From Polyangiaceae bacterium (GTDB taxonomy: Bacteria > Myxococcota_A > Polyangia > Polyangiales > Polyangiaceae): a stretch of DNA of 32,754 bases. Location of the stretch: positions 1-32,754 of the forward strand of contig JAICQO010000076.1 in the NCBI GenBank assembly GCA_025937835.1. The letters run 5' to 3'. Below are positions 10,191 through 19,502 of the stretch, piece after piece. Numbering within the stretch: the stretch's first letter is position 1; the number at the start of each line of letters is the position of its first letter. Position numbers and translations under genes: made by a program. The notes below the pieces were generated by a model. The model searched no databases. It was not told where the DNA came from and saw nothing but the letters and a program-made list of their open reading frames with translations.

Positions 10191-11654
<1,464 letters not shown>

Positions 11655-11770
11655 CGCTTCGTGCACGTCCGGCCGTCTCTTACTACGACCAGTGGCCCAG
11701 CCTAGGTCAATCCCGCTGCCCGCGCAATGCCGCGGCCTTCGGTCTCCGCGCTCTGTCACACCATCTCGTC

Positions 11771-11800
11771 AGGTGTGCGCCGGGTGTGCGCCAGGTGCGC
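11771..11800. repeat. 11-bp tandem repeat in divergent promoter region
   Basis: Two copies of (A/G)GGTGTGCGCC at 11771-11781 and 11782-11792 are followed by a shortened third (AGGTGCGC). They lie between the divergent kinase and GIY-YIG genes. Helically phased 11-bp repeats can be operator sites; no other support. Confidence 0.4.
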
Positions 11801-11885
11801 GGGAGCCTCGGAGCGCTCGCTCTAGAATTGCCGCGCACCTTCTCCGCGGATACGTAGCACTCCTCCGAGATCGGGTGATGTTCCC

Positions 11886-12239
11886 TTGAGCTCGACGCGC
11901 CTGCTCGATTTCTGGTTCGTGTACGTCGTGCGCTGCGGGGACGGCAGCCTCTACACCGGCATCGCCCGCGACGTCGCAGCGAGGGTCGCGGCGCACGCGG
12001 CCGGGCGAGGGGCGCGCTACACGCGCAGCCGGGGCCCGTTCGAGCTGTGCGCGACCCGGCGCTGCGCGTCCAAGACCAACGCGCTCCGGTTGGAGCTCGC
12101 GATCAAGCGCCTGTCCAGGGCCCAGAAGGAGGCGCTGCTGGGGGACGGCCAGTTGGCGAAGTTCGCGCGCGGGGCCCTGCGTGCGGCCTCGAAAAAGGCC
12201 AATCGGCCCCTCGAAACGCCTCGAAGCACGGGGCGCTAG
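11886..12239 (+). CDS. GIY-YIG superfamily protein (UPF0213/YhbQ-like)
   Basis: A 117-residue protein almost wholly made of a GIY-YIG domain. FVYVVRCGDGSLYTGIARDV (residues 11-30) carries the paired Y-V-V and Y-T-G signatures; R33 and the later LRLELAIKRLSRAQK segment supply the conserved Arg and Glu positions. The family has nuclease folds linked to DNA repair, and small stand-alone members are widespread and often uncharacterised. The only fitting start is TTG 11886, with GGGTGA about 7 nt upstream, since other ATGs nearby are out of frame. The C-terminus (from about 95) is a basic tail beyond the usual domain. The MBOAT gene follows 81 bp later on the same strand but is functionally unrelated as far as can be seen. 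Confidence 0.85.
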   Translation: MSSTRLLDFWFVYVVRCGDGSLYTGIARDVAARVAAHAAGRGARYTRSRGPFELCATRRCASKTNALRLELAIKRLSRAQKEALLGDGQLAKFARGALRAASKKANRPLETPRSTGR

Positions 12240-12320
12240 CGGGCGCTTTGCGTTCGGGGTATCGCGGCTCTCGCCGCCGAGGTCGTGTGGGCGGCGCCGC
12301 GCCTCTGCGGCTGGCCCAGG

Positions 12321-14024
12321 ATGCTGTTCGCGAGCTTCGATTTCCTGCTGTTCTTCGCCGTGGTGTTCGCGGGCTACTGGGCCCTCCGCGGACAGTTCGT
12401 GCTCCGCGCGCTGTGGGTGACCGCGGCCAGCTACTTCTTCTACATGGGCGGGTCGAAGCCCGTGGACGGACCGCTGCCCACGCCCTGGTACTTCGCCGGG
12501 CTGCTGCTGTTCACCACCCTCACCAGTTATCTGGCGGGCCTCGGCATCGCGGCGGCGCGCGAGCGCGCTCGCAGCCGCGGAGAGCCGCTCGGGCCGGAGC
12601 AGCGCTACGGCCAGGGCTGGCTCTTCCTCGCGGTTTGCGTGAGCCTCGGGCTGCTCGGCTACTTCAAGTACGTCGGGTTCCTGTCCGCGGCCGTCAACCA
12701 GGGGGCCGCGCTCGCGGGCAGCGGTCCGTGGCTGCCGGCGAGCGCGCCGCTCTTGCCGGTCGGGATCAGCTTCTACACGTTTCAGGCCGTCGGCTACGTG
12801 ATCGACGTGTACCGCGGCCGCTCGCCCGCCGAGCGGAACCCGCTGCGCTTTTGCCTGTTCCTTTCGTTCTTTCCCCACCTCGTGGCGGGGCCGATCGTAC
12901 GCGCCTCGGATTTCTTGCCGCAGCTCGATCGACCGCTGCGCCTCGATCGCGACGAGCTCGATCAGTCGCTGTTCCGGATCGCGCGCGGCCTGGTGAAGAA
13001 GGTGGTGTTCGGCGATTTCATCGCGGCCTCCTTCGTGGACCGCGTGTTCGCATCCCCCGCCGAGTACGGCTCGCTCGAGAACCTGCTCGCGCTCTACGGC
13101 TTCACTCTCCAGATCTACTGCGATTTCTCCGGCTACTCCGATATCGCGATCGGCGTGGCGCGGCTGCTCGGGATCCGCTTTCCAGAGAACTTCGACCGGC
13201 CCTACCAGGCGGTAGACGTCGCGGACTTCTGGCGGCGCTGGCACATGACGCTCTCGTCCTGGCTTCGCGATTACGTCTACTACCCGCTCGGCGGGAGCCG
13301 GCTGGGTCCCGGACGGACGTACCTGAACCTGTGGCTCACGCTGTTTTTGGTGGGGATCTGGCACGGCGCCGGCTGGACGTTCGTGATCTACGCGGTGCTC
13401 CAGGCTTCGGCGATGGTGTTCAACCGGTACACGCGCCACGACGGAGTCGGCTTCTTCGGCCGCATCGGGCGCGGCCTGGTGAGCGCTGGGCTCGTGTTCG
13501 GGCTGTCGGCAGCGTTCGGCAAATTGCTGGTCGACCTGTCGAGCCCCTGGACCCTCGGCGGCGTCGGAGCCGCGATCGCGTTCGTGCTGGCGATCCTCCC
13601 GCGCAGCGACGCCGTCGGCTGGTTGCGCCCGCTGCACATCCTGATCACCTTGCACTTCTCCGTGCTGTCGCGGGTATTCTTCCGGGCAGACACGCTCGAC
13701 GCCGCGCGCGAGATCCTGAAGAAGCTCGTGACCTGGGACGGCTTCGGGGTGCGCACCGGGCTGTTCGGCAACGAGGCGCTGTCCGAGCTGTTGCGCGGGT
13801 CTCGGCTGTCGTGGGCGAGCCCCGTCGCGGACTGGTGTGTGCTCGGCCTTTTGGTGCTGGGCTTTGCGCTCCACTACCTACCGGCTGCGCCGTTCGAGCG
13901 GGCAGCGCAGCGCTTGACTCGCGAGTCCCCCGCCGTGCTGGTGGGCGTGGGCTTCGCTTTGCTGTTCGGGGCGCTCGGGCTGTTGCTCGCCGGGCCGCGA
14001 GCGAACATCTACTTTGCGTTCTGA
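12321..14024 (+). CDS. MBOAT family O-acyltransferase (AlgI/PatA-like)
   Basis: A 567-residue multi-pass membrane protein. ATG 12321 gives the family's usual N-terminus (MLFASFDFLLFF); an in-frame GTG at 12285 would add 12 atypical residues. It has about ten hydrophobic segments, the AlgI signature DFWRRWHMTLSSWLRDYVYYPLGG with His308, and the catalytic His348 in GIWHGAGWTF. AlgI and PatA move acetyl groups across the inner membrane to an extracytoplasmic polysaccharide acceptor, then pass them to an SGNH partner. Two SGNH proteins follow, the first starting 16 bp after this stop, which matches that scheme. The polymer acceptor (exopolysaccharide, peptidoglycan or O-antigen) cannot be told, as no glycosyltransferase is in the window. 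Confidence 0.92.
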   Translation: MLFASFDFLLFFAVVFAGYWALRGQFVLRALWVTAASYFFYMGGSKPVDGPLPTPWYFAGLLLFTTLTSYLAGLGIAAARERARSRGEPLGPEQRYGQGWLFLAVCVSLGLLGYFKYVGFLSAAVNQGAALAGSGPWLPASAPLLPVGISFYTFQAVGYVIDVYRGRSPAERNPLRFCLFLSFFPHLVAGPIVRASDFLPQLDRPLRLDRDELDQSLFRIARGLVKKVVFGDFIAASFVDRVFASPAEYGSLENLLALYGFTLQIYCDFSGYSDIAIGVARLLGIRFPENFDRPYQAVDVADFWRRWHMTLSSWLRDYVYYPLGGSRLGPGRTYLNLWLTLFLVGIWHGAGWTFVIYAVLQASAMVFNRYTRHDGVGFFGRIGRGLVSAGLVFGLSAAFGKLLVDLSSPWTLGGVGAAIAFVLAILPRSDAVGWLRPLHILITLHFSVLSRVFFRADTLDAAREILKKLVTWDGFGVRTGLFGNEALSELLRGSRLSWASPVADWCVLGLLVLGFALHYLPAAPFERAAQRLTRESPAVLVGVGFALLFGALGLLLAGPRANIYFAF

Positions 14025-14040
14025 GTCGAGGCTCGTGAGG

Positions 14041-15741
14041 ATGACCGACTCGTTTGCCCAGACCTCTGCTCCGGTGACGGAGCTCGCGGCCGCCTCGCAG
14101 TCGGCGCCGCCGCAAGCTGGCAGCGGCGCGCTGCGGCGAGCGTTCGGGATCGCTTGCGGCGTACTGCTTTCGATCGGCGCGACGTACGTCGTCCCGGGGC
14201 TCGGCGCGCTCCGGCCGTGGGCACCCGGGTCGGGCTACGTGCCGTTCTGGAACGTGATCGGCCGCGAGCTCTTGGGCGAGGGGGAAGCGCTGGCGGCCGA
14301 AGCCCAGAAGCTGAAGGAGCTCCAGCAGAAGACCGAGCTACCCGCGGCGGCCAGCGCGAAGGTGCGTGAGCGCTCGGCGCGGCCCGCACGCCCGATGTTT
14401 CCGGCGTACACGCCCGAGGCGCGGATCGAGCGGCCCGAGCAAACCATCGAGTTTTCGGAGGCGCTCGAGGGCTACTTCACCAAGCTCACGCAGGTCGATC
14501 TCGGCATCGACGGGGCAATCGCCCGCACCGGGCATTGGGGCGACTCGGTGCTCGGTATGGACGGCATCACCTCCGGCATCCGCCGCCGGCTGCAGGCGCG
14601 CTTCGGGGACGCAGGCCACGGCTTCCACCTGATCGACCGCTATCACCCGTCGTACCGGCAGCAGGGCATCGAGTTTTCGGCCGGCGGCGGTTGGGAGGGC
14701 TGCCTGGTCATTTACGAGTGCCGCGCCAAGCAGGACCGCCGCTACGGCTACGGCGGCTACGTCGTGAGCTCCGATCCGTGGAGCGTGGCCTCGGCCGTGT
14801 ACACCACGCCGAAGAGCGGCTTCGGCAGCACGGTCTCCACCTTCGAGGTCTGGTTCCAGCGTCAACCCCGCGGCGGCAAGCTCGAGCTTTCGATCGATCG
14901 CCAGGAGAAGGTGGTGATCGAGACGCGCTCCGAGGTGATCGAGGACGGCTCGCGCATGGTGTACGTGCAGCCGGGGCCGCACACCTTCACGCTGACGGCG
15001 CCCGCGGGCGGCGGTCCGGTGCGCGCTTACGGTGTGGTGCTGGAGAACGACGGCCCGGGCGTGGTCTGGGACGGCATGGCGCTGATCGGCGGCTCGACGC
15101 GCGGGCTGCGCACCCAGGACGACGAACACATCGAAGATCAGGTGCGGCGGCGCGGCCTCGATCTGATCGCCTTCCAGTTCGGTGGCAACGACCTCGCTCG
15201 CAAGTACGTGGACCTCAAGCACTCGATGCAGCCGTATTACGACGAGTACGGCGAGGTGATCCGCAAGTTCCGCGCGGGCCGTCCGGAGGCGTCGTGTCTG
15301 ATCCTGAGCGTGATCGACCACGGCGAGCGCAAGACCGACGACCGCATCGTCACGAAGTCCTTCGTCAAGCCGCTGGTCGCCGCGCAGCGCGAGGTCGCAC
15401 GCCAGAACGGCTGCGCGTTCTTCGACACCTTCCAGGCGATGGGTGGCGAGGGCACCGCGGCGCGCTGGTACCGCTCCAACCCGCGGATGATGGCGCCCGA
15501 TCTCGGCCACCCGACTGGCACCGGTCACGAGGTACTCGCAGGCCTGATCGCGCACGCGCTGCTCTACGACTACGACCAATTCCGTTCGCGCATGGCCGGC
15601 AAACCGCTGCCGCTACCCGCCGAGAAAGCCCCGGAAAAGCCGCCGATCGACCTCGACGCGCTGCCCGACGTGCCGCCGGCCGCGGTGACCGCTCAGGGGG
15701 CCGCAGGTGAACCCGCGACCCGCGCGGGCTCAGAGCCCTGA
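14041..15741 (+). CDS. Membrane-anchored SGNH hydrolase/acetyltransferase-like protein
   Basis: A 566-residue protein with one N-terminal transmembrane segment (about IACGVLLSIGATYVVPGL), a spacer predicted as coiled coil, then an SGNH domain. Block I is HWGDSVLG with Ser169, block III QFGGNDLA with Asn383, and block V DLGH with Asp487 and His490, so the catalytic set is complete. Between blocks I and III lies an insertion of some 150 residues of beta character (KLELSIDRQEKVVIETRSEV and neighbours) resembling a carbohydrate-binding sandwich. It starts 16 bp after the MBOAT gene and is probably co-transcribed. By analogy with PatB and AlgJ/AlgX it would take acetyl from the MBOAT protein and O-acetylate a sugar, or remove acetyl. 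GTG 14035 is an alternative start. The 3' end overlaps the convergent paralogue by 49 bp. Confidence 0.83.
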   Translation: MTDSFAQTSAPVTELAAASQSAPPQAGSGALRRAFGIACGVLLSIGATYVVPGLGALRPWAPGSGYVPFWNVIGRELLGEGEALAAEAQKLKELQQKTELPAAASAKVRERSARPARPMFPAYTPEARIERPEQTIEFSEALEGYFTKLTQVDLGIDGAIARTGHWGDSVLGMDGITSGIRRRLQARFGDAGHGFHLIDRYHPSYRQQGIEFSAGGGWEGCLVIYECRAKQDRRYGYGGYVVSSDPWSVASAVYTTPKSGFGSTVSTFEVWFQRQPRGGKLELSIDRQEKVVIETRSEVIEDGSRMVYVQPGPHTFTLTAPAGGGPVRAYGVVLENDGPGVVWDGMALIGGSTRGLRTQDDEHIEDQVRRRGLDLIAFQFGGNDLARKYVDLKHSMQPYYDEYGEVIRKFRAGRPEASCLILSVIDHGERKTDDRIVTKSFVKPLVAAQREVARQNGCAFFDTFQAMGGEGTAARWYRSNPRMMAPDLGHPTGTGHEVLAGLIAHALLYDYDQFRSRMAGKPLPLPAEKAPEKPPIDLDALPDVPPAAVTAQGAAGEPATRAGSEP

Positions 15742-17186
15742 AGCGTCGCTGCGTCGTAGGCGCGCATCAGCGCGTCTCCCATCGCGGTGCCTGCGTAGAC
15801 ATAGCCGCGGCGCGTGAGGTGGATCTGATCAGGGCTGGCGAGCGGCGGCCGCGCGTAAACCCAGCGCCGGATCGAGCCCTGCCCGCCCATGAAGGCGTAG
15901 CCGTCCCAGAAGCCGCACGAAAAGTCGCGCGACACGCGGCGTTGCACTTCACTCACCTTCAAGAGCCGCGGCCGCACCTTGCTCGCGAGATCGAACGGGG
16001 CGAGCAGCACGCAGCTCGTGTCGGGCAGGGCGCGCCGCATCCGCGCGAGCACGGCCCGGAGCTTTGCCTCGTAGCTCGCGACCGACAGTCTGGCGTCGGC
16101 AGCCTCGTTGGTGCCATAGGCGAAGGTGATCAGATCCGGCGCGCGCCGCCGCACGGCCTCGGTCCAGATCGGCTCGTCCCAGCGTAGCTGGTCGATCATG
16201 CGCGAACCGCTGATCCCGAGCGTGTCGATCACCACGCCGGGCGAATCGCTCTCGCCGATCACGCCGAACAGGCGCACCGGGCCGTTGCCGGACAACCGCA
16301 CGCCGATCCGGTGCAACCCGGGCGTGGTTTGGAACGAATACACTCCGAGCCGCTCGCCGTTGGCGCGGGTCTCCACCCGCGCGAGCGGCTTGCCGTCGAT
16401 CTGCAGGTTGAAATCGCCGCCGCCGGGCTGGACCAGATACTGGATCTCGAAGCGCCGATTCGGCGAGTCCTTGGCCGTGACGACCTCGGCGTAGCCGTCC
16501 GCGTACTTTCCGCTCAGCGCTGCGCCGAACAAGCCGAGCGGCTCGTGCTCGGCATCGGAACGACTGCGAGCGTGCACGACCTGGAACCCCTGATGATCGG
16601 TGAAGCTGTCGAGCGTGCGGTACCAGCGGTTCACGCGGCCGAGCATCACGAACCCCTGGCCACCGTCGCCGAATCGACTCTGGAGATAGACGCGCAGGTA
16701 GCCCGTATACAGATCGGATTGGGTGTGCGAGGCGCCGTAGGACAAGATCCGCAGCTTGCCGTCCGTGTCTCTTCCCTCGCGCAGGCGGGCGAGCGCCGCG
16801 TGGAACCCGGACAGCGCAGCCTCGTTTTCGATCGCCACGAAGTGACCGAGCGCGAGCGAATCGACCGCGGGTTCACCGCGCAGGACCCGCGTTTGAGCGC
16901 GGCGGCGAAGCAGCTCGAGCTCCCCGTCGAGCGCCGGGCGCGGCGCGACTTCGAGCGCTCGACTGGGGGCCTTCACCTCGCTCGCGGGCGCTACGGGCAG
17001 CGGCGCTGCCGGCCGTAGCGGCCCCGTCGCGGCTGCTGCGCTGATCGGGGCGGGGCCCCGGGCCTGGCCCGCGTCGGGGGGAGCCGAGCCCAACCACGCG
17101 GCGCAGCCCGTCGCCAGCAGCAGCGTGAGCGCTCGAACGCCGGAAGCGGCATGCGCCTGCGGAAGTGAGCGCAACGGTTTGACCAA
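15693..17186 (-). CDS. Second SGNH hydrolase-like protein, lipoprotein
   Basis: A 497-residue paralogue of the protein at 14041. Its signal sequence ends at LLATGC, a likely lipobox (Cys28), followed by a Pro/Ala-rich linker. The SGNH set is present with one change: block I reads YGASHTQSD (Ser153) where GDS is usual, so the Asp before the Ser is Ala. Asn360 is in YGTNE, and Asp453 and His456 in DQIH. The same beta-sandwich insertion separates block I from block III (about 240-325). The start is weakly supported: TTG 17186 is the first possible codon after an in-frame stop, and TTG 17174 is possible. It is convergent with the other SGNH gene and its coding end overlaps by 49 bp, so expression is separate although the function is probably shared. 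Confidence 0.8.
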   Translation of the reverse strand: MVKPLRSLPQAHAASGVRALTLLLATGCAAWLGSAPPDAGQARGPAPISAAAATGPLRPAAPLPVAPASEVKAPSRALEVAPRPALDGELELLRRRAQTRVLRGEPAVDSLALGHFVAIENEAALSGFHAALARLREGRDTDGKLRILSYGASHTQSDLYTGYLRVYLQSRFGDGGQGFVMLGRVNRWYRTLDSFTDHQGFQVVHARSRSDAEHEPLGLFGAALSGKYADGYAEVVTAKDSPNRRFEIQYLVQPGGGDFNLQIDGKPLARVETRANGERLGVYSFQTTPGLHRIGVRLSGNGPVRLFGVIGESDSPGVVIDTLGISGSRMIDQLRWDEPIWTEAVRRRAPDLITFAYGTNEAADARLSVASYEAKLRAVLARMRRALPDTSCVLLAPFDLASKVRPRLLKVSEVQRRVSRDFSCGFWDGYAFMGGQGSIRRWVYARPPLASPDQIHLTRRGYVYAGTAMGDALMRAYDAATLQGSEPARVAGSPAAP

Positions 17187-17479
17187 GCTGCATCAAGGTA
17201 CCGTCAAGCCGTGGGGACAGCAAATCCGCGGACCCGGGGCGCAGGTGATGCGAGGTGCGAGACACGAGCGCCTCCGGGGCAGCGCTGTCGCAGCGCTCGG
17301 AGCTCGTTGCGAGGCGGGCTCGGGTTCGCGTGGTCACCGGGAAAGCCTGCTGGCTGTGTCGTCCCATCGCTTCGGGTGTGCCAACGGCTGACACAGCGGA
17401 GTTCACGCAACCCCGAGAATTGCCGGTACTCCGCCCTGGCACGCGACATGCACACCTCGCCCCCGAAGGGTTGAAGGGT
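17187..17479. other. Divergent intergenic region, about 290 bp
   Basis: The region lies between the leftward SGNH lipoprotein gene and the rightward ferritin-like gene and should hold both promoters. The ferritin-like frame is open back to 17255, but the extra residues look non-coding. No convincing promoter hexamers, dyads or RNA genes were seen. Confidence 0.4.
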
Positions 17480-18364
17480 GTGCTCTTGAGCCAAAAGAAT
17501 TTTGAACCGAAGGACGTGGCGGAATCGTTGCTCGGCGCAGCAGGGCGGCCTTTCTTGGTCAACGGAGTCGCGCGGCGCGCCGAGGTCGGCAATCACCGCG
17601 ACTGGATCCTGCCGCGCACTCCCCGGCCCGAGACGGCAGGCCTCGGCGCCGAGGCGCGGCTGATCTTGGGCGAGGCGTGGACGCGAACGGGGCAGCTCGA
17701 GCACGCCTCGGTCGCCGCCTTCGCCCGCTTCACGCTCGAGCTCCTGGCGTTCGGCGCTCCTGCGGAGCTGGTAGCTCGCGCCTCGGCGGCGATGGCCGAC
17801 GAAACGGCGCACGCTCTCTCCGCGTTCAGCCTGGCGAGCGTGTACGCGGGCCGAGCGATCGGTCCCGAGCCGTTGCCGGTGGCTGATGCCGTGGGCGCCT
17901 GCGATCTGGACGAGGCGATCCACACCACGTTCGTCGAGGGCTGCATCGGCGAGACCGTCGCCGCGCTGGAAGCTTCGATGGCCCGCGATCACACCAGCGA
18001 TCGAGCGGTGCGCGCGGTCTTGGCGCGGATCGCCGAAGACGAGGCCAGCCACGCCGAGCTTTCGTTCCGTTTCTTGCAGTGGGCGCTGCCGCGCACCGCG
18101 ACGCGGCCGCTCGAACGCCTGACTGCGGTGCTCGACGCGGCCATCGAGCGCGCCGCCCGCGAAGCCGACGCCGCTCCGGCACAACCGACGATCGCCGAGC
18201 AGCTGCTAGCGCACGGCGTCTTGCCCGAACCGCGCCGCTCTGCGCTGCGCCACTCCGCCCTGCGCGACGTCGTGGCGCCCTGCCTGCACTCACTGCGCGA
18301 CGGACACTGGCAGAACCGCGACTTGTTCGGCAGGCTCGATAGCCGCGCGGAGCGCGTGGCCTAG
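17480..18364 (+). CDS. Ferritin-like diiron domain protein
   Basis: A protein of about 294 residues from GTG 17480; TTG 17486, better placed after GAAGGG at 17473-17478, is an alternative. The ferritin-like four-helix bundle runs from about 63 to 205 with candidate diiron ligands: Glu74 in LEHASVAAF, Glu108 and His111 in DETAH, Glu153/Glu158 in EGCIGET, and Glu188 and His191 in EDEASH. Two ExxH motifs plus paired Glu match the diiron carboxylate pattern of ferritin-like and rubrerythrin-like proteins. The family is common and uncharacterised in myxobacteria. Iron storage, peroxide detoxification or an oxygenase reaction are possible. There is no signal peptide. It stands alone, convergent with the beta-barrel gene, with a strong hairpin between them. 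Confidence 0.75.
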   Translation: MLLSQKNFEPKDVAESLLGAAGRPFLVNGVARRAEVGNHRDWILPRTPRPETAGLGAEARLILGEAWTRTGQLEHASVAAFARFTLELLAFGAPAELVARASAAMADETAHALSAFSLASVYAGRAIGPEPLPVADAVGACDLDEAIHTTFVEGCIGETVAALEASMARDHTSDRAVRAVLARIAEDEASHAELSFRFLQWALPRTATRPLERLTAVLDAAIERAAREADAAPAQPTIAEQLLAHGVLPEPRRSALRHSALRDVVAPCLHSLRDGHWQNRDLFGRLDSRAERVA

Positions 18365-18462
18365 AGCGACAAACGGTTAGGAATCTGCCGAGATTGGCGG
18401 AAAACGCGGACGAAAAGCCTGAGCGCGTGGGGAGGGGCCCCGACGAATTCACTTCGGCGGGG

Positions 18463-18484
18463 AGGGGCGGCGCGTGCCGCCCCT
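18463..18484. terminator. GC-rich bidirectional terminator hairpin
   Basis: AGGGGCGGC at 18463-18471 pairs perfectly with 18476-18484 around a GCGT tetraloop, between the ferritin-like stop (18362-18364) and the convergent beta-barrel stop (18489-18491). No T-run follows. The right arm belongs to the 20-bp repeat shared with 118-137. Confidence 0.6.
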
Positions 18485-18488
18485 GAGA
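18469..18488. repeat. 20-bp repeat, copy 2
   Basis: Identical over 20 bp to 118-137, and also placed directly downstream of a minus-strand envelope-protein gene. Confidence 0.5.
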
Positions 18489-19502
18489 CTAGAGCAACCA
18501 ACCGAGCTGCACGCCGAAGCTCGGGAGTGGCTGGCGCGCGACGGTCTCGAGCGTGTCCCGCACCTTCCTGTCGAGCGGCGCCACGTAGCGCTCGATCGCG
18601 ACCTCGGGCAGGCCCTCGACGGTGGTCTCGAACTCGATGTCACTCGGGGCGATCGGGATCTGCGCTCCGAGGAACAGGCCCACGCTGAAGCCGCTCTTCG
18701 CGGTGTGGAAGTAACCGATCTGCGGGGTCAGGATCATCGTGCGCACCCGCCCGTCGGCTTGGTACTCGATGACGTCCGGGATCCCGAGCTCGGGATATTC
18801 GTCGGCGAGGGTCGAGGAGTTGACGCTGTCCTTGATCGTGCCCTTCACGGTCTCGTAGCCGACGCCAGCGCCAAAGTAGAAACCGCCGCCGAACGGATAG
18901 ATCCGCCCGTAGATGTCGTATTCCTGATAGCTGAGCTTGGCCTCGCCGTAGATGCTCAGCCGGATCGCCGGGATCACCCCGATGTTGAGCCCCGCACCGA
19001 AGTACTTGGTGAGCTTCATCGTCCCGCCGAACTGGATCAGGTTCGGCATCCCGACGCCGATCACGGGTCCAATGCGGAACGGCCCGAGCAGGCCGTCCGA
19101 GTCGTCCTTCTTACCCCCGCCGTACTCCGCTTGCGGAACACTCCAGTCCGTCGCGGGCGCCGGCTGCGGTTGGGGTTCGTAAGCCGGGGGAGCGACGCCT
19201 GCGGAGGGCGGAGGCTGTGACTGAGGCGGTGGCGGTGGCGGTGGCGGTGGCGGTGGCGGTGGCGGTGGCGGTGCTGCCTGGCTCGGGGATGAGCCGGTCG
19301 CAGGCTCGCTCGGGAAAGCGCCCGTCGGCGGCGGCCCGGGTGGAACAGACGGTTCGGCGGGGGTAACGCTCGGCGCTGGTTCGTACGGCGGCGGCGCTGG
19401 TGGAGGCTCCGTCGGTGGATCGCTTTGCGCCGACACGTTGGCCGAAGCCAGCGCGGTCACGAACGACACCGGCAGGAACGCTCGTGCGAAACTCGATCGC
19501 AT
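18489..19502 (-). CDS. Outer-membrane beta-barrel-like protein with poly-Pro tract
   Basis: A 337-residue exported protein. ATG 19502 with GAGG a few nt upstream is preferred to TTG 19535. A signal peptide (MRSSFARAFLPVSFVTALASANVSA) is followed by a long Pro-rich spacer of about 100 residues including at least 16 consecutive prolines encoded by a hexanucleotide repeat. The C-terminal part alternates hydrophobic and polar residues with many aromatics and glycines (FGAGLNIGVIPAIRLSIYGEAKL, FYFGAGVGYETV), which fits an eight-strand-like beta-barrel. The final residues SFGVQLGWLL are less canonical than a terminal Phe. The Pro spacer probably crosses the periplasm or reaches peptidoglycan; that is inference. 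Monocistronic, with the thioredoxin operon upstream on the same strand. Confidence 0.75.
   Translation of the reverse strand: MRSSFARAFLPVSFVTALASANVSAQSDPPTEPPPAPPPYEPAPSVTPAEPSVPPGPPPTGAFPSEPATGSSPSQAAPPPPPPPPPPPPPPPPQSQPPPSAGVAPPAYEPQPQPAPATDWSVPQAEYGGGKKDDSDGLLGPFRIGPVIGVGMPNLIQFGGTMKLTKYFGAGLNIGVIPAIRLSIYGEAKLSYQEYDIYGRIYPFGGGFYFGAGVGYETVKGTIKDSVNSSTLADEYPELGIPDVIEYQADGRVRTMILTPQIGYFHTAKSGFSVGLFLGAQIPIAPSDIEFETTVEGLPEVAIERYVAPLDRKVRDTLETVARQPLPSFGVQLGWLL
19225..19272. repeat. Hexanucleotide microsatellite, 8 perfect units
   Basis: GGCGGT is repeated eight times without a mismatch (48 bp). Read on the minus strand it encodes 16 prolines as CCG/CCA within the beta-barrel gene. Copy-number changes keep the frame, so they would alter only spacer length. 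Confidence 0.95.

Follow-up and report, generated by a model that had tools for sequence, protein, structure and literature searches.

An MBOAT Gene Accompanied by Two Ape1-Fold SGNH Genes in Myxococcota: A Candidate Module for the O-Acylation of an Envelope Glycan

Introduction

A gene for a membrane-bound O-acyltransferase (MBOAT) located next to two genes for SGNH proteins, both of which carry a beta-rich insertion, raises the question of what such a trio does and whether it represents a system of its own. The arrangement was found in a Polyangiaceae bacterium (Myxococcota) on a stretch of 32,754 nucleotides (GenBank assembly GCA_025937835.1, contig JAICQO010000076.1, positions 1 to 32,754), which is referred to as the window in the following. 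A sequence-only reading of the window had proposed that the two SGNH proteins, here named SGNH1 and SGNH2, are paralogs sharing a sugar-binding-like domain, and that this domain could mark a distinct O-acylation system. The results presented here suggest, at about even odds in our judgment, that the three genes represent an envelope-glycan O-acylation module with SGNH1 as the transferase and SGNH2 as the esterase, most likely serving peptidoglycan O-acetylation and de-O-acetylation. No paper on this Myxococcota system was found in the open-licence literature.

Results and Discussion

Gene Arrangement and Relationship of the SGNH Proteins

The MBOAT gene, encoding an acyltransferase of the PatA/DltB type (12321..14024, plus strand; Pfam PF03062, E 6.1e-30), is followed on the same strand, after a gap of 16 bp between its stop and the next start, by the gene for SGNH1 (14041..15741, plus strand), a membrane-anchored Ape1-fold SGNH protein and candidate acyltransferase as judged from Pfam, the AlphaFold model and structure matches. 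An alternative TTG start of SGNH1 at position 14014 would overlap the MBOAT gene. The gene for SGNH2, an Ape1-like SGNH protein and candidate esterase (15693..17186, minus strand; Pfam, PDB match, AlphaFold model), is convergent, and its 3' end overlaps that of SGNH1 by 49 bp.

Both SGNH proteins matched the Pfam family Lipase_GDSL_2 (E 9.7e-13 for SGNH1 and 1.8e-11 for SGNH2) and aligned to each other with 31% identity over 398 columns (E 4e-41), while the profile-profile comparison covered 383 columns, including the insertion, with a probability of 100. A comparison of the insertions alone gave a z-score of 14, with all 1000 shuffled sequences scoring lower. The proposed trio of an MBOAT and two paralogous SGNH proteins with a common insertion was thus confirmed, with all three open reading frames (ORFs) in place. 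The two segments quoted for it, RFGDxGxGF and GPVRxxGV, are present in SGNH1 (RFGDAGHGF, GPVRAYGV) and SGNH2 (RFGDGGQGF, GPVRLFGV), but the former immediately precedes the insertion and belongs to the margin of the SGNH core.

Structural Relationship to Ape1

AlphaFold models of SGNH1 and SGNH2 reached mean predicted local distance difference test (pLDDT) values of 87.5 and 85.6, respectively, and showed confident strands in the ranges between residues 192 and 335 and between 194 and 312, respectively. The insertions (about residues 198-338 of SGNH1, 14632..15054, plus strand; about residues 181-315 of SGNH2, 16242..16646, minus strand; both from model, structure match and alignment) are thus predicted to be ordered and related to each other, as the earlier reading had anticipated. 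The best structural match of both was the peptidoglycan O-acetylesterase Ape1 of Neisseria meningitidis (4k3u), with Z 41.9, a root-mean-square deviation of 2.3 and 348 of 350 residues aligned for SGNH1, and Z 38.7, a deviation of 2.5 and 338 aligned residues for SGNH2. Ranked after 4k3u were chains of the Campylobacter jejuni Ape1 with Z 36 to 37. The best non-Ape1 structures followed at Z 18.0 (SGNH1) and 15.8 (SGNH2), with PatB (8tlb) at 15.3 for SGNH1. Models of both proteins were also compared with known structures using Foldseek. A PDB sequence search led to 4k3u as well (SGNH2, E 3e-23; SGNH1, E 2e-6), the C. jejuni Ape1 being returned for SGNH2, and profile searches against Ape1 gave E 3e-47 for SGNH2 and 7e-25 for SGNH1, placing SGNH2 nearer to Ape1.

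In 2005, Weadge et al. (PMC1199599) reported for Ape1a and Ape1b that motif I is directly followed by roughly 100 residues rich in beta structure, and residues 104-221 of the N. meningitidis enzyme were assigned to a domain resembling family 35 of the carbohydrate-binding modules (CBM35), modules thought to bind uronic acids (PMC6174289). Such a segment is found in both models. The supposed sugar-binding-like domain shared by SGNH1 and SGNH2 therefore appears to be real and CBM35-like; judging from the models, it is the already known Ape1 architecture. A new insertion domain was rejected on the grounds of the structure matches and the two articles, and the idea of a separate system recognizable by this domain is not supported.

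The MBOAT Protein and Its C-Terminal Tyrosine

Among the NCBIfam models, DltB was nearest to the window MBOAT, with 166 bits and hence below the cut-off of 375. The F-W-R/N-R-W-H motif and the conserved His of PatA-type MBOATs are present in the form of FWRRWH with H309 and the second His H349, both invariant in 20 aligned sequences (numbering of P0001, with the start Met as residue 2). The protein ends in the shuttle-like hexapeptide NIYFAF (14004..14021, plus strand), the Tyr of which, Tyr565, is a candidate for carrying the acyl group and is kept in all 67 related MBOATs. For the C. jejuni PatA, acetylation on the Tyr of a C-terminal FXYXXF was reported, and PatB accepts acetyl from such a peptide (PMC12148441). 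The full FXYXXF consensus is not present in the window MBOAT, as its first place is occupied by Asn; relatives possess Phe, Tyr or Asn at this position.

Two Classes of Ape1-Fold SGNH Proteins

SGNH1 and its relatives are characterized by a GDS block lacking the following His (V, S, T or A instead), FGGN(E/D) and D-x-R/A/S/G-H. In the window protein, block I with the nucleophile Ser169 (14539..14547) is invariant in 62 sequences, as are G381, G382 and N383 of the block III GGN (15181..15189) and the D and H of block V, D487-LG-H490 (15499..15510); Gly350 of block II (15088..15090), where PatB has Ser/Asn, is conserved in at least 90% of these sequences. The SGNH2 class features GAS(H), mostly YGTNE, and D-x-I/V-H. 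Its block I in the window (16728..16736) contains Ser153 and an Ala replacing the Asp of GDS; among 40 sequences the G and S are invariant, and the Ala is conserved in at least 90%. Gly327 of block II (16206..16208) is likewise invariant in the 40 sequences, as are G358 and N360 of the block III GTN (16107..16115) and the D and H of block V, D453-QI-H456 (15819..15830). Neither class matches the Ape1 motif I, GDS(H/F), exactly, and the Ape1 motif VII, Dx(V/T)H, is replaced by DLGH in the window SGNH1 and by DQIH in the window SGNH2, with DHIH in 20 and DHVH in 9 of 40 SGNH2 relatives. Because of motif VII, the proteins are termed Ape1-like and not Ape1.

The classes also differ at their N-termini. 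SGNH1 possesses a membrane helix (residues 28-50, 14122..14190, plus strand; model, and hydropathy in relatives) and a juxtamembrane RPW...P segment (residues 58-68, 14212..14244, plus strand; conservation and pattern scan), in which R58, P59, W60 and P68 are nearly invariant across 62 sequences. The combination of helix and RPW-like pattern was detected in 69 of 74 SGNH1 sequences and in none of 35 SGNH2 sequences. SGNH2 begins with a putative signal peptide including a lipobox-like ATGC recognized by eye (residues 1-28, ATGC at 25-28; 17103..17186, minus strand). A strict lipobox pattern, which misses some near fits, applied to 10 of 35 assessed SGNH2 relatives (8 more were not assessable), and many N-termini in this family resemble signal anchors. 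The assumption of one anchored protein and one lipoprotein, working on the two sides of the periplasm, is consequently in line with the window, yet not with the family at large, of which lipoprotein status, as deduced from the N-terminal sequences, is not a trait.

In the phylogenetic tree of 75 rows, the SGNH1-type sequences grouped in a single clade of 38 rows with support values of 100/99. The SGNH2 sequences were not well supported as a clade (85/67 and 83/50) in this midpoint-rooted tree, in which the C. jejuni Ape1 row was very long.

Linkage and Co-Occurrence of the Genes

Named genomes were scanned with SGNH1, and 79 loci were obtained from the best 80 of 390 relatives. Their titles mostly refer to Myxococcota or deltaproteobacterial bins, including Nannocystis, Plesiocystis, Enhygromyxa, Paraliomyxa and Sandaracinus, and one refers to an Oligoflexales bin. 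Of the 66 SGNH1 loci featuring more than 1.7 kb of upstream sequence, 62 have an MBOAT gene immediately before SGNH1 in the same orientation. SGNH2 was encoded within 6.5 kb of SGNH1 in 38 of the 69 loci with at least 3 kb downstream; furthermore, strong SGNH2-type matches (≥549 bits) were detected in all seven further whole genomes, being far from the MBOAT gene in the Nannocystis genomes.

Within 95 genomes sampled across the phylum, 46 showed an SGNH1/2-type match, and all 46 encode an MBOAT, yet so do 30 of the 49 SGNH-negative genomes. The distance between the genes was at most 3 kb in at least 39 of the 46 genomes, with the MBOAT gene upstream on the same strand in at least 32, considering the best SGNH match per genome and part of the listed MBOAT matches. 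As regards 59 closer relatives, SGNH was found in 56 and MBOAT in 57; both MBOAT-less genomes also lacked SGNH, and one carried the MBOAT only. On the short contigs of these relatives, an MBOAT gene was accompanied by two SGNH genes in at least 20 and by at least one in at least 32 of the 59 genomes. Fisher p values for the co-occurrence, with kinship ignored, amounted to 5e-7 (95 genomes) and 0.0018 (59 relatives). The expected association of the SGNH genes with the MBOAT gene is thereby borne out, and the general logic of MBOAT-SGNH acyl transfer is supported.

Adenylation and Carrier Genes near MBOAT-SGNH1 in One Subclade

An adenylation enzyme is encoded within about 1.6 kb 3' of SGNH1 in 11 of the 79 loci (L119, L120, L121, L129, L130 and L138; also L116, L131, L132, L134 and L146). 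Nine of these are among the 19 loci with the MBOAT tail type [RK][ATP]F, the other two being loci whose available sequence includes no MBOAT gene, and none was observed in 43 loci of the other two tail types, that of the window included, for which at least 2 kb of downstream sequence was available. Two examples scored 355.9 and 328.5 against the NCBIfam amino-acid adenylation model (cut-off 317.4) and remained below the DltA cut-off. All eleven enzymes contain an FDLS motif, the Asp of which presumably binds the amino group of the substrate. A carrier-protein ORF is present in six of the eleven loci, and the four tested were all above the PP-binding cut-off; in L119 (7902-15448), it starts right after the adenylation gene. 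A sulfotransferase gene follows in two tested loci, and some of the adenylation loci continue with genes for a sulfotransferase, for SGNH2 and for another SGNH1.

Judging by their gene content, the loci of this subclade resemble the Dlt logic with an Ape1-fold SGNH protein, no DltD being seen. Dlt-like genes occur in other Gram-negative bacteria. The position of adenylation and carrier genes near the MBOAT-SGNH1 pair fits the expectation for an acyl-transfer unit. The window itself yielded no match to the adenylation or carrier family of these relatives.

Comparison with Known Systems

Ape1 (N. meningitidis 4k3u; C. jejuni 8gkd and 8gld; Ape1a/1b) resembles SGNH1 and SGNH2 in the whole fold, the CBM35-like insertion after block I, the catalytic Ser, Asn, Asp and His, and the encoding near an MBOAT gene. 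In contrast to Ape1, SGNH1 is tied to the MBOAT, carries an anchor of the RPW type, has GDS with no His behind it and features the FGGN and D-x-R/A/S/G-H blocks, whereas SGNH2 has GAS for GDS; the gene order is MBOAT, SGNH1 and convergent SGNH2. The PatA-PatB-Ape1 cluster of Neisseria and Campylobacter likewise combines an MBOAT carrying a C-terminal Tyr motif with two SGNH genes, one of them Ape1-like. However, neither window SGNH protein matches the PatB family DUF459 (PF04311; P0002 and P0003, E up to 1), no DUF459 match was detected in the organism's own draft genome, and the MBOAT-linked SGNH1 exhibits the Ape1 fold including a CBM-like module, whereas PatB has no such module (PMC12148441). 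SGNH1 was therefore not assigned to PatB, the kept block II Gly being a further ground.

The ape1b-ape1c-pat cluster of Bacteroides and Porphyromonas also comprises two family-1 SGNH genes and one MBOAT gene, but Ape1c has no insertion and the ape genes precede pat, whereas in the window both SGNH proteins possess it and their genes come after the MBOAT gene (PMC1199599). The legend to the Ape2 (PatB) alignment in the same article mentions no sequence from Bacteroides or Porphyromonas. AlgI-AlgJ-AlgX is similar in that an MBOAT, a membrane-tethered SGNH protein and a second SGNH protein with a CBM are combined. The CBM of AlgX is C-terminal, however, and SGNH1 and SGNH2 yielded no ALGX match at E up to 1, for which reason membership in the alginate system was rejected. 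Dlt membership (DltA, B, C, D) was rejected too, since DltD (PF04914) was found in none of 12 genomes, the own draft genome included (control genomes matched in 2 of 14), and the window lacks adenylation and carrier matches; moreover, the Tyr motif is carried by the MBOAT here and by the DltX peptide there, although the subclade described above shares an adenylation enzyme and carrier near the MBOAT and SGNH genes with Dlt. The difference from known systems thus lies in the MBOAT-tied Ape1 fold, the missing PatB match in the own genome and the adenylation-carrier subclade.

Proposed Mechanism and Alternative Explanations

The computed results comprise the order of the genes, the folds, the conservation of catalytic residues, and the linkage and joint occurrence of the genes; the substrate, the transferred group, any activity and the roles assigned to SGNH1 and SGNH2 are predictions. 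In the proposed sequence of events, the MBOAT would place an acyl group, probably acetyl from acetyl-CoA, on Tyr565 of its tail, like PatA. SGNH1, which helix and RPW segment would keep at the inner membrane, would accept the group on Ser169 and pass it to the glycan held by its CBM35-like module, and the Ape1-like SGNH2 would take acyl groups off again. We infer that SGNH1 is an Ape1-fold acyltransferase in the place of PatB because of its linkage to the MBOAT gene, the RPW pattern, the invariant shuttle Tyr and the lack of a PatB or DltD match in the own genome. SGNH2 is regarded as the esterase because it is nearer to the Ape1 profile and mostly keeps GxSH, YGTNE and D-x-I/V-H.

Several observations weigh against this assignment. 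Both SGNH classes retain the block II Gly, the Ser/Asn hallmark of PatB being absent, although an older review describes this Gly as invariant in PatB, so that the hallmark is disputed (PMC6174289). The residue before the catalytic His of SGNH1 is Arg, Ala, Ser or Gly and not hydrophobic as in PatB, and the nearest solved structures of both proteins are esterases. Compared by sequence, the two insertions matched that of the N. meningitidis Ape1 with z-scores of only 0.9 and 1.1 (174 and 147 of the 1000 shuffled sequences scored at least as high), so that their equation with the Ape1 module rests on structure. DUF459 was above its cut-off in 24 of the 59 relatives, some of these hits being SGNH2-type ORFs themselves. 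In addition, the own genome encodes two further MBOATs (C82 and C184) and a second convergent SGNH1-type/SGNH2-type pair (C170; L005:5269-8210) with no MBOAT adjoining, and pairing by neighbourhood is therefore not exclusive. Finally, peptidoglycan as the presumed substrate is carried over from Ape1.

As an alternative, SGNH1 and SGNH2 could both be esterases, representing a duplicated Ape1-like protein, with the MBOAT using an unlinked or unknown transferase. The esterase structures, the block II Gly and the two ALGX matches near the C82 MBOAT speak for this, but the SGNH1-MBOAT linkage, an anchor pattern confined to SGNH1, and the failure to find DUF459 in the own genome, DltD in any of 12 genomes or ALGX in more than 2 of the 12 (14 control genomes were silent) make it improbable. 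A DHHW search was silent in 12 of 12 genomes and 14 of 14 controls and was thus uninformative. A relay as proposed for alginate, with the MBOAT loading an AlgJ-like SGNH1 that hands the group to an AlgX-like SGNH2 for acylation of the polymer, also seems unlikely: the layout does correspond to AlgI-AlgJ-AlgX with a membrane-tethered AlgJ and a CBM on AlgX (PMC4148444), and SGNH1 and SGNH2 co-occur in seven of seven genomes even if unlinked; however, the CBM-like module is present in both proteins, SGNH2 is close to SGNH1 in just over half of the loci (38/69), and its blocks are mostly of the Ape1 type.

Compatible with either division of labour, though rather unlikely in our judgment, is the acylation of an outer polysaccharide or a lipid-linked glycan instead of peptidoglycan. 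MBOAT-SGNH pairs also act on alginate, cellulose and secondary wall polymers (PMC12148441), the supposed affinity of CBM35 for uronic acids would suit such a glycan, and sulfotransferase genes occur near some relatives. On the other hand, no polysaccharide synthase was recognized among the 24 window ORFs scanned, which was counted in favour of peptidoglycan, any given gene family of the neighbour survey occurred in 13 of the 79 loci at most (many with short flanks), and the nearest solved relative is Ape1.

Further Genes in the Genome and the Window

MBOAT-less SGNH pairs of the same kind as C170 were found in several close relatives. The DUF459 ORFs of three relatives, viewed by eye and not in a systematic search, were located in loci without a recognized MBOAT. 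The C82 region (10672-19240) probably represents a separate polysaccharide acetylation locus. The MBOAT of C184 (L092:8441-10730) ends in VPFVYFQF, no SGNH1/2 relative is present on its 11 kb contig, and its divergent neighbour ORF resembles a polysaccharide deacetylase by eye. In the window, the ORF adjoining SGNH2 (17255-18364, plus strand) gave sub-cut-off matches to AurF (E 0.002) and a ferritin-like encapsulin cargo (E 0.04). Ferritin genes are mentioned as well in PMC1199599, in a figure legend on the OAP cluster, a resemblance that is possibly a coincidence.

Conclusions

The noteworthy points are the less expected pairing of an Ape1-fold SGNH1 with an MBOAT, in which SGNH1 would replace PatB if the proposal is true, and the adenylation-carrier variant, whereas the built-in domain is a usual part of Ape1. 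Tentatively, Myxococcota may possess in MBOAT-SGNH1 a portable unit for acyl transfer across the membrane, a protein of esterase fold with a sugar-binding module having become the transferase instead of PatB or DltD. The acyl source would then depend on the lineage, being acetyl-CoA in the window type and, in Enhygromyxa-type loci, a carrier-bound amino acid supplied by the neighbouring adenylation enzyme and carrier protein. The latter case would amount to an aminoacylation, in a Gram-negative organism, of the cell wall or of a different envelope glycan. If SGNH1 is a transferase, the Ape1 shape, known in the available literature only from esterases, would do the job of PatB with a glycan-binding module of its own. 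This would also be a direct test of the features by which an SGNH enzyme becomes a transferase and not a hydrolase; the PatB structure paper ties transfer to block II and to a hydrophobic wall that is missing in SGNH1. The adenylation-carrier variant, if confirmed, would mean that different acyl groups can enter one and the same MBOAT-SGNH unit, which would connect the Pat pathway with the Dlt pathway.

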